A program made the position numbers and the translations under genes. The notes below the pieces were generated by a model. That model ran no database searches. It was not told the origin of the DNA and saw only the letters and a program-made list of their open reading frames with translations. A stretch of DNA of 64,000 nt, taken from Halorubrum ruber. Lineage in GTDB: Archaea > Halobacteriota > Halobacteria > Halobacteriales > Haloferacaceae. Location: positions 1,488,001 through 1,552,000 of the forward strand of contig NZ_CP073695.1 in NCBI RefSeq assembly GCF_018228765.1, read 5' to 3'. This document shows positions 15,819-24,288 of the stretch, one piece after another; position 1 is the stretch's first letter, and each line of letters starts with the position of its first letter.

Positions 15819-15838
15819 ACACCGTGTTTCCGGTGAAA
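15819..15838 (+). repeat. origin-recognition-box-like element 1
   Basis: ACACCGTGTTTCCGGTGAAA. Same orientation as element 3, opposite to elements 2, 4 and 5. It lies on the left side of the AT-rich segment. Confidence 0.72.
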
Positions 15839-15884
15839 TCGGGGTGTGGCTGGGTGCGGTCGGTGCGTGGGCGGGACATGTCGT

Positions 15885-15950
15885 CTGAGAAACCGCAGTT
15901 TCTGACCGTATTAAAACAACAGGTTTTATTACCCGTCTCAGAGTAAAGCT
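15885..15950. other. AT-rich candidate duplex-unwinding element
   Basis: The strand contains TATTAAAAC and GGTTTTATTA within 30 bases, in a region otherwise close to 65% GC. TAAAAC-AACAG-GTTTTA (15912-15928) can form a 6-bp stem. It lies between two oppositely oriented box elements (15819 and 15994), as expected for the melting site. Confidence 0.6.
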
Positions 15951-15970
15951 CGCCAAGCCAAGTTGGCGAG
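15949..15970. repeat. perfect 8-bp inverted repeat in the origin
   Basis: CTCGCCAA (15949-15956), loop GCCAAG, then TTGGCGAG (15963-15970). It follows the AT-rich segment directly and could form a cruciform or RNA hairpin. Confidence 0.6.
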
Positions 15971-15993
15971 TGCTCGCCGAGCCATGACGGGCG

Positions 15994-16013
15994 TTTCACC
16001 GGAAACGTGGTCT
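15994..16013 (-). repeat. origin-recognition-box-like element 2
   Basis: TTTCACCGGAAACGTGGTCT on the plus strand, i.e. the reverse orientation of element 1; right flank of the AT-rich segment. Its outer end differs from the others (GTGGTCT). Confidence 0.7.
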
Positions 16014-16046
16014 CTCCCGTGATGGTGTCGACCCTCAGCTCGTCGA

Positions 16047-16066
16047 ACACCGTGTTTCCGGTGAAA
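16047..16066 (+). repeat. origin-recognition-box-like element 3
   Basis: ACACCGTGTTTCCGGTGAAA, identical over 20 bases to element 1. Confidence 0.72.
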
Positions 16067-16170
16067 CCGGCCGACGATCGTCCCCGTTGTTAACCTCGTT
16101 CACTCAGTTTCGGGCCGCCTTTCCCTCCGGTGTTGTCTGCTGACACCGCCTCCACGTGCTCTCGTCGTAC

Positions 16171-16220
16171 TCTCGTTAACTCGCATCCGCTCTCGTTAAC
16201 TCGCACCTGCTCTCGTCGTC
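16171..16220. repeat. 20-bp tandem repeat with GTTAAC
   Basis: TCTCGTTAACTCGCA occurs at 16171 and again at 16191 (period 20), with a third partial copy at 16211 (TCTCGTCGT). Each full copy has the palindrome GTTAAC; another GTTAAC is at 16088. Inside the origin, upstream of the 26-bp repeats. Confidence 0.65.
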
Positions 16221-16286
16221 CGTTCACCCCATCAGTCCTCTCTCGACCTGTCTCCCTGGATCTCTCCCAACCCACCCTTCCTCAGG

Positions 16287-16364
16287 CCTTTCCCAGCTCA
16301 TCCCTCCTCAGACCTTTCCCAGCTCATCCCTCCTCAGACCTTTCCCAGCTCATCCCTCCTCAGA
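16287..16364. repeat. 26-bp pyrimidine-rich tandem repeat, three copies
   Basis: Three exact 26-bp units (16287-16312, 16313-16338, 16339-16364), core CCTTTCCCAGCTCATCCCTC, with degenerate partial copies on both sides. The plus strand is nearly free of G over the whole stretch. It separates box elements 3 and 4. Confidence 0.8.
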
Positions 16365-16396
16365 CCTTTCCCAACCCTCCCCTCCCCAGCCCCCGT

Positions 16397-16416
16397 TTTC
16401 ACCGGAAACACGGTGT
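16397..16416 (-). repeat. origin-recognition-box-like element 4
   Basis: TTTCACCGGAAACACGGTGT, the exact reverse complement of elements 1 and 3. Confidence 0.72.
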
Positions 16417-16490
16417 GTGTCTCGACGGACCAACCCGTCCCCCGACCGCCCCGCGCCCGCGCCCCACACGCGGCCGCGAAACAGAACTCA

Positions 16491-16510
16491 TTTCACCGGA
16501 AACCCGGTGT
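16491..16510 (-). repeat. origin-recognition-box-like element 5, overlapping the cdc6 promoter
   Basis: TTTCACCGGAAACCCGGTGT ends only seven bases before the ATG of orc1/cdc6. Bound initiator here would block transcription or translation start, so self-regulation is likely. Confidence 0.7.
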
Positions 16511-16517
16511 CTCTCTC

Positions 16518-17723
16518 ATGGACGCAGCGGACGACCTCTTCACGAGGGAGGACCCCATCTTCGCGAACAAGGAGCTCCTCGAGATCAGTCACCTGCCGGG
16601 CGAGGGCCGAATCGTCGGCCGAGACGACGAGATCGCCGACTTGGCGACGGCGGTCAATCCGGCCATCTTCGGGCAGAGCCCGAGCAACGTCCTCATCTAC
16701 GGGAAGACTGGTACGGGGAAGTCGCTGTGTGCGAAGTACGTCTCCAAGCGACTCGTCTCGACCGCGAGCGAGGAGGGCGTCACGGCGACGTTCGCCTACG
16801 TCGACTGCGCGCAGGACACCACGGAGACGCAGGCGGTCCAGACGATCGCCGAGGGCGTCAACGACCCCGAGGAGACCGGAATCAACGTCCCAGACAAGGG
16901 GCTCTCCACCTCCACGTACTACAAGCGGCTCTGGCGGATACTCGACCAGCGGTACGACGTCGTCCTGATCCTGCTCGACGAGATCGACAAGCTCGACGAC
17001 GACGCCATCCTGATGCAGCTGTCCCGCGCGGGCGAGGCCGGAAAGATCACCGACTGTAAGCTGGGCGTCGTCGGGATCAGCAACAAGATCCAGTACAAAG
17101 ACCGGATGGACGAGCGCGTCAAGTCGAGCCTCTGTGAGCGCGAGTTCGTCTTCCCGCCGTACGACGCGAACCAGCTACGGGAGATCATGCAGGCGCGCGC
17201 GGACGCGTTCCACGACGACGTTCTCGATCCGTCCACTATCCCGCGCGCTGCGGCGCTCGCGGCACGTGAGCACGGGGATGCGCGGAAGGCAATCGACATC
17301 CTCAGATACGCGGGCGAGATCGCACAGGGGAACGACGAGCCCACCGTCCGCGAGGAGTTCGTCACGCAGGCGCGCGAGCGCGCCGAGACCGACCGCTTCC
17401 GCGAACTCATCCGCGGCTCCACGCCGCACTCGCGGTACGTGCTCCAGGCGCTCGCGCTGCTATCGCTTTCGAACGGTCGACAAGACGGATTCCGGACGAG
17501 CCGCGTGTACGAAATCTACGAGAACATCTGTCGACAGGAGGGCTCCGACAGCCTCTCGCTGCGACGCGTCCGCGACCTCCTGAAGGAACACGCCTTCCTC
17601 GACATCATCGAACAGTCGAAACACAGCGGCGGTAGCGCCGAGGGAAGCTACACCAAACACCAGCTTCTCGAGGACCCGAGCGTCGTCAAAGAGGTCCTCA
17701 CCGAGGACGACGCCGAAGCGTAA
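16518..17723 (+). CDS. cdc6: Orc1/Cdc6 replication initiator
   Basis: AAA+ ATPase that binds origin boxes and loads the MCM helicase. Walker A is 'YGKTGTGKS' (61-69) and Walker B 'VVLILLDEIDKLD' with Asp154-Glu155. 'EFVFPPYDANQLREIM' marks sensor/lid residues, and residues 320-401 are the DNA-binding winged helix ('RYVLQALALLSLSNGRQDGF'). The length of 401 is typical for the family. The open frame continues upstream to 16413, but that part covers box elements 4 and 5; 'MDAADDLFTREDPIF' from 16518 is the usual N-terminus. It is transcribed away from the origin it sits next to. Confidence 0.95.
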   Translation: MDAADDLFTREDPIFANKELLEISHLPGEGRIVGRDDEIADLATAVNPAIFGQSPSNVLIYGKTGTGKSLCAKYVSKRLVSTASEEGVTATFAYVDCAQDTTETQAVQTIAEGVNDPEETGINVPDKGLSTSTYYKRLWRILDQRYDVVLILLDEIDKLDDDAILMQLSRAGEAGKITDCKLGVVGISNKIQYKDRMDERVKSSLCEREFVFPPYDANQLREIMQARADAFHDDVLDPSTIPRAAALAAREHGDARKAIDILRYAGEIAQGNDEPTVREEFVTQARERAETDRFRELIRGSTPHSRYVLQALALLSLSNGRQDGFRTSRVYEIYENICRQEGSDSLSLRRVRDLLKEHAFLDIIEQSKHSGGSAEGSYTKHQLLEDPSVVKEVLTEDDAEA

Positions 17724-17736
17724 CCGAACCGCACCC

Positions 17737-17834
17737 GGCCGCTCGACACTGACTGACGGCCGCTCGGCACTGATTGACGGCCGCTCGACACTGACTGACG
17801 GCCGCTCGGCACTGATTGACGGCCGCTCGACACC
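17737..17834. repeat. 21-bp tandem repeat between cdc6 and tbp
   Basis: Four full units of 21 bp (17737, 17758, 17779, 17800) and a partial fifth. Unit: GGCCGCTCGACACTGACTGA plus C. Two variants alternate (GACACTGACTGAC and GGCACTGATTGAC), so the real duplication unit was 42 bp. It lies between the convergent cdc6 and tbp genes. Confidence 0.85.
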
Positions 17835-17888: not shown

Positions 17889-18449
17889 TCAGCCGAGCAG
17901 GCCGAGCCCTTCGATGCGCTCGACGATCTCCTCGACCGCTTCCTCGGCGTCGTCGGTCCGCTTGCCGCCGGTGATAACGATCTTTCCGCTCCCGAAGAGC
18001 AGAATGACGACTTCGGGTTCGTCCATCCGGTAGACGAGCCCGGGGAACTGCTCCGGTTCGTACTCGACGTCCTCGAGGCCGAGCCCGATCGCGAGGGCGT
18101 TGAGGTTGAGGTTGTGCCCGAGGTCCGCGCTCGACACGATGTTCTGAACGGTGATCTCCGGGTCGTCTTCGACGGGGATCTGGAGGCCGCGCAGCTTCTC
18201 GAAGATGATCCCGAGCGCCTCGTGGACGTCGTCGATACTCTTCGCGCCCGTACAGACGATCTTCCCCGAGCGGAAGATGAGCGCGGCCGCCTTCGGCTCC
18301 TGGGTCCGGTACACGAGGCCGGGGAAGTTGTCCGGGTTGAAATCCGCGCCCGGGAGGTCTTCCGCGAGCGCCTCCAAATCGAGCTCCTGACCGATACCCG
18401 TCGATGCAACAACGTTCTGAATCTCGATCGAGTCTGCAGGGTTCGTCAT
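17889..18449 (-). CDS. tbp: TATA-box-binding protein TBP
   Basis: General transcription factor that bends promoter DNA and, with TFB, recruits archaeal RNA polymerase. Two direct repeats of the saddle fold cover residues 8-90 and 98-182, each with the signature 'FPGLVYR' followed by 'ALIFRSGKIVCTGAKS' or 'VILLFGSGKIVITGGK'. The length of 186 and acidic surface are typical. Upstream on the minus strand are two TATA-like boxes (about 18455-18460 and 18474-18482), so TBP may control its own gene. Convergent with orc1/cdc6 and divergent from the rRNA operon. Confidence 0.96.
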   Translation of the reverse strand: MTNPADSIEIQNVVASTGIGQELDLEALAEDLPGADFNPDNFPGLVYRTQEPKAAALIFRSGKIVCTGAKSIDDVHEALGIIFEKLRGLQIPVEDDPEITVQNIVSSADLGHNLNLNALAIGLGLEDVEYEPEQFPGLVYRMDEPEVVILLFGSGKIVITGGKRTDDAEEAVEEIVERIEGLGLLG

Positions 18450-19119: not shown

Positions 19120-20589
<1,470 letters not shown>

Positions 20590-20651
20590 CGACCCGAGAC
20601 TCGCCCTCTGGGCGAGCTCACCTTACGACCGTCACCACGACGGTCACTACT

Positions 20652-20676
20652 CATTCGCATTGGCCTGTGTACGTCC
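20652..20676 (+). other. 3' half of the 16S rRNA processing stem
   Basis: CATTCGCATTGGCCTGTGTA and the following CGTCC pair with 19015-19039 in the leader; small mismatches would form the bulges of a bulge-helix-bulge. Confidence 0.6.
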
Positions 20677-20763
20677 GCCCACCCATCGGCTTGGACACCT
20701 TAGAACGACCACGGCTCGCAACACAAACGCGACACACACCAGACCTTCCCCTCGCGGGAAGGT

Positions 20764-20835
20764 GGGCTCATAGCTCAGCGGTAGAGTGCCTCCCTTGCAA
20801 GGAGGATGCCCTGGGTTCGAATCCCAGTGAGTCCA
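20764..20835 (+). tRNA. tRNA-Ala(TGC)
   Basis: Acceptor GGGCTCA (20764-20770) pairs with TGAGTCC (20828-20834) with one G-T pair; discriminator A at 20835. Anticodon stem CCTCC/GGAGG encloses CTTGCAA, anticodon TGC. T-arm is CTGGG-TTCGAAT-CCCAG. CCA is not encoded. Its place in the 16S-23S spacer is the common archaeal arrangement. Confidence 0.97.
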
Positions 20836-20974
20836 TGTCCGTTCGGTCCGAATCCGTCCCCTTATATGGGAGACGCGACTCGGATCGAACACGACGACCG
20901 ATGCACCATCCCGGGAAACCGCGGATGGGAAGGGTTCGACGAACGCCCCGTCACACCCGGGGCGATTCAATGAC

Positions 20975-20998
20975 AACCGTGTATACGTGCGATCCAGA
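20975..20998 (+). other. 5' half of the 23S rRNA processing stem
   Basis: AACCGTGTATACGTGCGATC plus CAGA is the perfect reverse complement of 24066-24089, a 24-bp helix that loops out the 23S precursor. Confidence 0.85.
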
Positions 20999-21111
20999 CG
21001 TCCACTGAACTCATCCGAGTTCGTGGAACGTCAGTGAACCATATACAGTCGGGTGACACTATGTCACTTGACACCGTCAGCACTCTCTTCTGGAGAGTTG
21101 GCTGACACACT

Positions 21112-24022
<2,911 letters not shown>

Positions 24023-24065
24023 CATTGGCGCTGACGCGCCACGACTCGCATGAGTTCAGGCGGTA

Positions 24066-24089
24066 TCTGGATCGCACGTATACACGGTT
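24066..24089 (+). other. 3' half of the 23S rRNA processing stem
   Basis: TCTGGATCGCACGTATACAC plus GGTT pairs perfectly with 20975-20998 over 24 bp. It closes the helix from which pre-23S is excised. Confidence 0.85.
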
Positions 24090-24103
24090 GGTATCGAACC
24101 AGA

Positions 24104-24163
24104 CCGACACAGGAGTCTCACTGTAGGAGATACAGTGAGTCTCGGTTCAACTCCGAGAGTCGG
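24104..24163 (+). ncRNA. tRNA-like element immediately before 5S rRNA
   Basis: A three-helix fold that copies half a tRNA. CCGAC (24104-24108) pairs with GTCGG (24159-24163) as an acceptor-like stem. CTCACTGTA (24117-24125) pairs with TACAGTGAG (24131-24139) in a 9-bp hairpin with loop GGAGA. CTCGG-TTCAACT-CCGAG (24141-24157) is a perfect T-arm with a seven-base loop. There is no D-arm and no usable anticodon loop. In Haloferax volcanii a tRNA-like element upstream of 5S directs tRNase Z to make the 5S 5' end; this element sits exactly where that requires. Confidence 0.8.
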
Positions 24164-24165
24164 CA

Positions 24166-24288
24166 TGAAGGCGGCCAGAGCGGTAGGGAAACACCCGTAC
24201 CCATTCCGAACACGGAAGTTAAGCCTACCAGCGTATCGTGAAGTACTGGAGTGAGCGATCCTCTGGGAACCACGAGTCGCCGCCTGCC
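24166..24288 (+). rRNA. rrf: 5S ribosomal RNA
   Basis: Terminal helix AGGCGGC/GCCGCCT closes the molecule. The internal ACCCGTACCCATTCCGAACA and GGAAGTTAAGC are typical archaeal 5S sequence. About 122 nt. The 5' end follows the tRNA-like element by two or three bases; the terminator starts 27 bases after the 3' end. No tRNA-Cys follows. Confidence 0.96.

Follow-up and report, generated by a model that had tools for sequence, protein, structure and literature searches.

Chromosomal replication origins are assigned to the haloarchaeal oriCb family if the adjacent Orc/Cdc6 protein is at least 80% identical to known members (PMC3528665), and the family is represented by orc5/oriC2 of Haloferax volcanii (PMC3528665, PMC4441112). 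Synteny with an rRNA operon containing tRNA-Ala has been published for H. volcanii orc5, H. borinquense and H. lacusprofundi (PMC3528665). H. volcanii no longer initiates at oriC2 once orc5 is deleted (PMC6063281), and in H. mediterranei an ARS assay and replication profiling identified oriC3-cdc6G, whose Cdc6G is more than 90% identical to Orc5, as an active origin, one of three on the chromosome (PMC4595724). In the oriC1 of H. hispanica, an extended G-string is essential (PMC3936714).

Here, we analysed a 64-kb stretch of the 3.02-Mb genome of Halorubrum ruber (C1:1488001-1552000, hereafter the window), and find that it very probably harbours an oriCb-type chromosomal origin orthologous to H. 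volcanii oriC2-orc5. The features of the locus, in window coordinates, are as follows.

15819-15838, minus strand: box 1, TTTCACCGGAAACACGGTGT, left initiator box flanking the putative DNA unwinding element (DUE), tail outward
15899-15948: AT-rich putative DUE, 64% AT, between boxes 1 and 2
15994-16013, plus strand: box 2, right DUE-flanking box, tail GTGGTCT (GGTCT end)
16047-16066, minus strand: box 3, TTTCACCGGAAACACGGTGT
16397-16416, plus strand: box 4, exact reverse complement of boxes 1 and 3, forming with box 1 the outer 38-nt inverted pair
16491-16510, plus strand: box 5, leader box, tail CCGGTGT, starting at -27 from the orc start
16518-17723, plus strand: orc1/cdc6 initiator gene of the Orc5/oriCb family (401 aa, AAA+ plus Cdc6_C winged helix, TIGR02928)
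17889-18449, minus strand: TATA-box-binding protein gene (tbp), downstream neighbour
19120-24288, plus strand: rRNA operon (16S, tRNA-Ala, 23S, 5S), transcribed away from the origin, a synteny marker of this oriCb type

Anatomy of the locus and its family

Five 20-bp boxes had been predicted at 15819-16510, and a search of the whole 64-kb window with TTTCACCGGAAACNCGGTGT, allowing up to three mismatches, returned exactly these five. None appeared in 100 dinucleotide-preserving shuffles of the window, which rules out chance repeats as their source (0 expected). At the same threshold, only eight good boxes exist in the 3.02-Mb genome, the five in the window and three remote ones, and a reversed control pattern has no match anywhere in it. 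The internal relations of the set are also those originally described: boxes 1 and 3 share one minus-strand sequence, of which box 4 is the exact reverse complement, and boxes 2 and 5 deviate at the outer end only. Boxes 1 and 2 lie inverted, tails facing out, on either side of 15899-15948, the most AT-rich 50-mer of the region, whose 64% AT stands against a genome of roughly 69% GC and is equalled by only 0.35% of the 50-mers in the window. Box 5 falls in the cdc6 leader, as predicted, and stops 7 nt short of the ATG at 16518. The interval between boxes 3 and 4 holds pyrimidine-rich 26-nt tandem repeats (CTCCTCAGACCTTTCCCAGCTCATCC) at 16278-16366, and short tandem repeats (GGCCGCTCGRCACTGAYTGAC) lie at 17739-17830, between orc and tbp.

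The traits that define the family are present throughout. The Orc protein is 94-100% identical to its counterparts in the Halorubrum-type loci (Halorubrum and close relatives); identity is about 87-91% with the proteins of Haloferax, Halogeometricum, Halobellus and related genera, above the 80% that marks oriCb members. Next to the orc gene lie inverted boxes with the family sequence, as judged against orthologous loci, and the AT-rich element is enclosed by opposed boxes. The rRNA operon with tRNA-Ala is syntenic, as in type 1 oriCb origins. A primer published for H. volcanii orc5 (PMC6063281) aligns with two mismatches to the 3' end of the Haloferax orthologue.

We then surveyed boxes upstream of 80 orthologues (loci L001-L080). 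In 80/80 loci, the gene has a plus-strand box ending in GGTGT in its leader, 20-45 nt before the start codon; this leader box begins at -27 in every Halorubrum-type locus (35/35) and between -27 and -41 over the full set. In each of the 76 testable loci, the AT-richest segment has minus-strand boxes ('<') to its left and plus-strand boxes ('>') to its right. The original prediction had staked itself on conservation of the boxes beside orthologous cdc6 genes, and at least the leader box is conserved beside every one of them. H. volcanii oriC2-orc5 and H. mediterranei oriC3-cdc6G have in common with Halorubrum the orthologous Orc, the box core, the GGTGT tail, the opposed boxes around an AT-rich element, the leader box and the downstream rRNA operon. 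They differ in detail: Halorubrum loci usually carry one left-hand box and about five in all, whereas Haloferax carries 4-8 left-hand boxes; the leader box begins at -27 in Halorubrum and at -34/-35 in Haloferax; and the conserved remote single boxes of Halorubrum have no counterpart in three Haloferax genomes.

Some members of the survey are arranged differently. Three lie on secondary replicons (L063, L070 and L076, on Halovivax chromosome 2 and on Salinibaculum and Natronorubrum plasmids). In L030 the origin boxes are about 3.2 kb from the orc gene, and in L026 and L029, as in L027, L028 and L031 (Halorubrum-type), the origin boxes are displaced or were not found upstream; all of these keep the leader box at -27. 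In Haloparvum sedimenti (L035), left-array boxes follow one another at 20-nt spacing from -966 to -886, counted from the first base of orc.

Taken as an origin, the locus is thus an ordinary, well-conserved member of a published family, and this membership is the best explanation of its boxes, their geometry, their family-wide conservation, the synteny and the box-initiator pairing.

Proposed mechanism and use of the origin

Orthologues and anatomy together suggest that the adjacent Orc1/Cdc6 would bind TTTCACCGGAAAC-NN-GGTGT boxes. Of the set, boxes 1 and 2 point away from each other and would flank the melting site, where the initiator would open the DNA and MCM would be recruited, and boxes 3 and 4 may act as further initiator sites. 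Box 5, spanning -27 to -8 before the ATG, falls where the core promoter of a leaderless haloarchaeal transcript is expected, so that initiator bound there would probably repress its own orc gene. A scan for sigma-70 promoters gave no matches, and such promoters are not expected in archaea. DNA binding, unwinding, autoregulation and firing in Halorubrum ruber are what we infer from these two sources. In archaeal ORBs it is the AAA+ domain that reads the G element (PMC3936714), and GGTGT is therefore probably read likewise.

The origin could be intact but dormant or rarely used, with oriC1 and two other orc-linked candidates dominating firing. Dormant origins are known, such as oriC4 of H. mediterranei (PMC4595724), and the Halorubrum ruber genome holds three other orc loci with flanking repeats. 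However, the orthologous origins are active in both H. volcanii and H. mediterranei, and the retention of box geometry, leader box and rRNA synteny across the family suggests an origin in use, so that we regard dormancy as unlikely. GC skew shows no switch at the locus (+0.003 over the left 100 kb, -0.004 over the right 100 kb), is flat at the 10-kb scale and is irregular across 20 sampled genome stretches; since this is a multi-origin haloarchaeon, a flat skew neither supports nor refutes an origin.

We consider it very unlikely that the boxes are mainly transcriptional operators of orc and other genes, and that the Orc protein regulates genes in the manner of Sulfolobus Orc1-2 instead of initiating replication. 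A non-initiator Orc1 regulator is reported from Sulfolobus (PMC9738581), a leader box stands before 80/80 orthologues, and single boxes occur at remote intergenic loci, one of them about 100 bp upstream of a gene. Against this reading stand the AT-rich element between opposed boxes and the measured origin activity of the orthologues, and one of the remote boxes (site B, below) lies between two convergent genes.

Box tails across the family and within one genome

The original prediction took a G-string beside the box core to be usual among haloarchaea, and its absence here to be an oddity that could reflect a lineage-specific pairing of box and initiator. The absence itself is real: none of the five window boxes ends in an extended G-run, which counts against the origin reading in so far as the G-string is essential in H. 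hispanica oriC1, although it is equally missing from the Haloferax orthologues. But it is not an oddity. Among 475 boxes beside the 80 orthologues, 416 end in GGTGT and 22 have GGGG in the tail, and the same core with GGTGT is found in Haloferax, Halogeometricum, Halobellus, Natrialba, Natronorubrum and others. The GGTCT end of box 2 recurs in 8/26 Halorubrum-type loci, where it is the commonest tail at that position.

The G-run is found in the same genome, at a paralogous origin. The oriC1 of Halorubrum ruber (C1:271890-272138) has boxes of the form GTTCCAC-CGAAACAAAGGGGTG plus a G-run, and its oriC1-type Orc gene lies at C1:269613-270866. As a class, haloarchaeal oriC1 (H. hispanica oriC1-cdc6A) resembles the window origin in its inverted boxes, outward tails, AT-rich element and adjoining orc gene, and differs from it in the core, TTCCACNCGAAACAAAGGGGTG plus a G-run, and in the Orc wing, SKGRYGRTKE. 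The window Orc instead carries GGSAEGSYTKH, largely conserved in its family. We therefore rejected assignment of the locus to oriC1, which with its G-run sits elsewhere in the genome, whereas the window locus has tbp and the rRNA operon as neighbours.

Boxes beside two further Orcs of this genome (at 2899276 and 2919095) have different cores, yet GGTGTGT tails. Thus, different boxes pair with different Orc winged helices among the paralogous origins of a single genome, a covariation that the original prediction had proposed to look for. These two orc-linked origin candidates, in L087 (C1:2895500-2904500) and L088 (C1:2915500-2924500), have the cores TCACTCGGTACGANGTGTGT and TTCANTTGAAANAGTGGTGTGTC and GGTGTGT-type tails, with boxes flanking each orc gene on both sides.

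With GGTGT in 416/475 family boxes and an oriC1 G-run in the same genome, the G-run is a trait of oriC1 and GGTGT is the normal state, the oriCb family's version of the ORB G-element. Of the predicted lineage-specific pair, the match between the boxes and their own Orc stands, and the lineage specificity does not: a GGTGT that evolved within this lineage in place of a G-string would agree with its difference from the oriC1 G-run and with the different Orc wing, but it is scarcely credible given the same core and tail beside orthologues in many haloarchaeal genera, the GGTGT tails of 80/80 leader boxes, which make it family-specific, and the GGTGTGT ends of two other origins with other cores. 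The supposed haloarchaeal requirement for a G-run is thereby corrected, as it fits oriC1, while the oriCb family and two further origins of this genome use GGTGT. Because G-run and GGTGT origins coexist in one genome, the pairing of initiators with their boxes is open to study within a single cell.

Single boxes far from the origins

In bacteria, datA is a high-affinity initiator site outside the origin, the loss of which leads to over-initiation. In H. hispanica, oriC2D is an ORB-rich, Cdc6E-titrating region with 11 ORBs directly downstream of cdc6E (PMC3936714). Both are initiator boxes outside a functional origin and are proposed to tune initiator supply, and it is only with the remote boxes of Halorubrum that we compare them. 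Halorubrum ruber has three remote boxes of the window origin's type.

C1:1567733-1567752, plus strand: site A, single box, +63 kb from the origin (L091)
C1:1159988-1160007, minus strand: site B, single box, about -344 to -345 kb (L191)
C1:1817168-1817187, plus strand: site C, single box, +313 kb (L113)

Whereas oriC2D clusters its 11 ORBs beside cdc6E, these are three single boxes 63-345 kb away, each matching the exact pattern once, unlike a datA-like cluster of boxes. Across 15 Halorubrum genomes, namely Halorubrum ruber and 14 relatives, all with complete match lists, 41/41 non-origin matches to TTCAYCGGAAACNNGGTGT fall at orthologues of the three sites (A in 15 genomes, B in 13 and C in 13). 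In alignments of 26, 24 and 13 sequences for A, B and C, 16-17 of the 17 box columns are invariant, as are 0-3 of the 147 flank columns. The invariance of the box is partly built in because loci were picked by an exact or near-exact pattern; independent of that selection are the confinement of all matches to only three loci and the diverged, near-random flanks. Outside the genus, several genera have one to three remote boxes at unrelated loci, and no box near ndk, as at site B, was found in nine non-Halorubrum genomes.

Site A usually lies 75-140 bp upstream of a gene for a 194-aa membrane protein that has no significant Pfam match, and is kept even in genomes in which no adjacent ferredoxin gene was detected. 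Site B is flanked by ndk and a lipoprotein-like gene, each with its 3' end towards the box. Site C directly follows the 3' end of a gene that its sequence marks as fumarylacetoacetate-hydrolase-like, and the neighbour on the other side of the box varies. About 55 nt to the left of box B, most genomes (L126-L220) have a TTTATA-like element pointing into the convergent intergenic region, which could be a small-RNA promoter or a terminator.

A comparable site exists for the other initiator. A single oriC1-type box (C1:293860-293881, minus strand; L231:1361-1382) is located about 22 kb away from oriC1, in the interval bounded by the 3' ends of cgi121 (KEOPS) and tRNA-Gln, and is present in six Halorubrum genomes, in two of them with one or two mismatches. 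In G012 and G030, a similar box occurs at a distance of 22-24 kb from oriC1, in a different context.

At least two of the four satellite sites thus lie between convergent gene ends, positions that argue against plain promoter control and for titration or chromosome organization. For this reason we did not adopt a promoter regulon, which is opposed by the location of B between two 3' ends, of C 3' of the hydrolase gene and of the oriC1 satellite between the ends of cgi121 and tRNA-Gln; only A could fit such a role. Direction-dependent fork elements are not supported either, as the orientation of the boxes relative to the origin differs between genomes. A titrating role, by analogy with H. hispanica oriC2D (PMC3936714), or a chromosome-organizing one would fit the convergent positions better. 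We tentatively suggest, as a possibility still short of probable, that Halorubrum initiators each have an origin and a few conserved single satellites, three for this Orc and at least one for that of oriC1, which would be initiator-bound non-origins rather than ordinary promoters, and would influence replication, either by sequestering initiator or by linking distant loci to the origin.

No description of remote single boxes was found in the literature searched, which included few subscription journals and no supplements, and the one haloarchaeal precedent found there is oriC2D of H. hispanica. The satellite boxes therefore go beyond that literature and are the part of this locus most worth following: if bound by their initiators, they would make it possible to test, in a defined setting, how archaea restrict or coordinate the firing of several origins.
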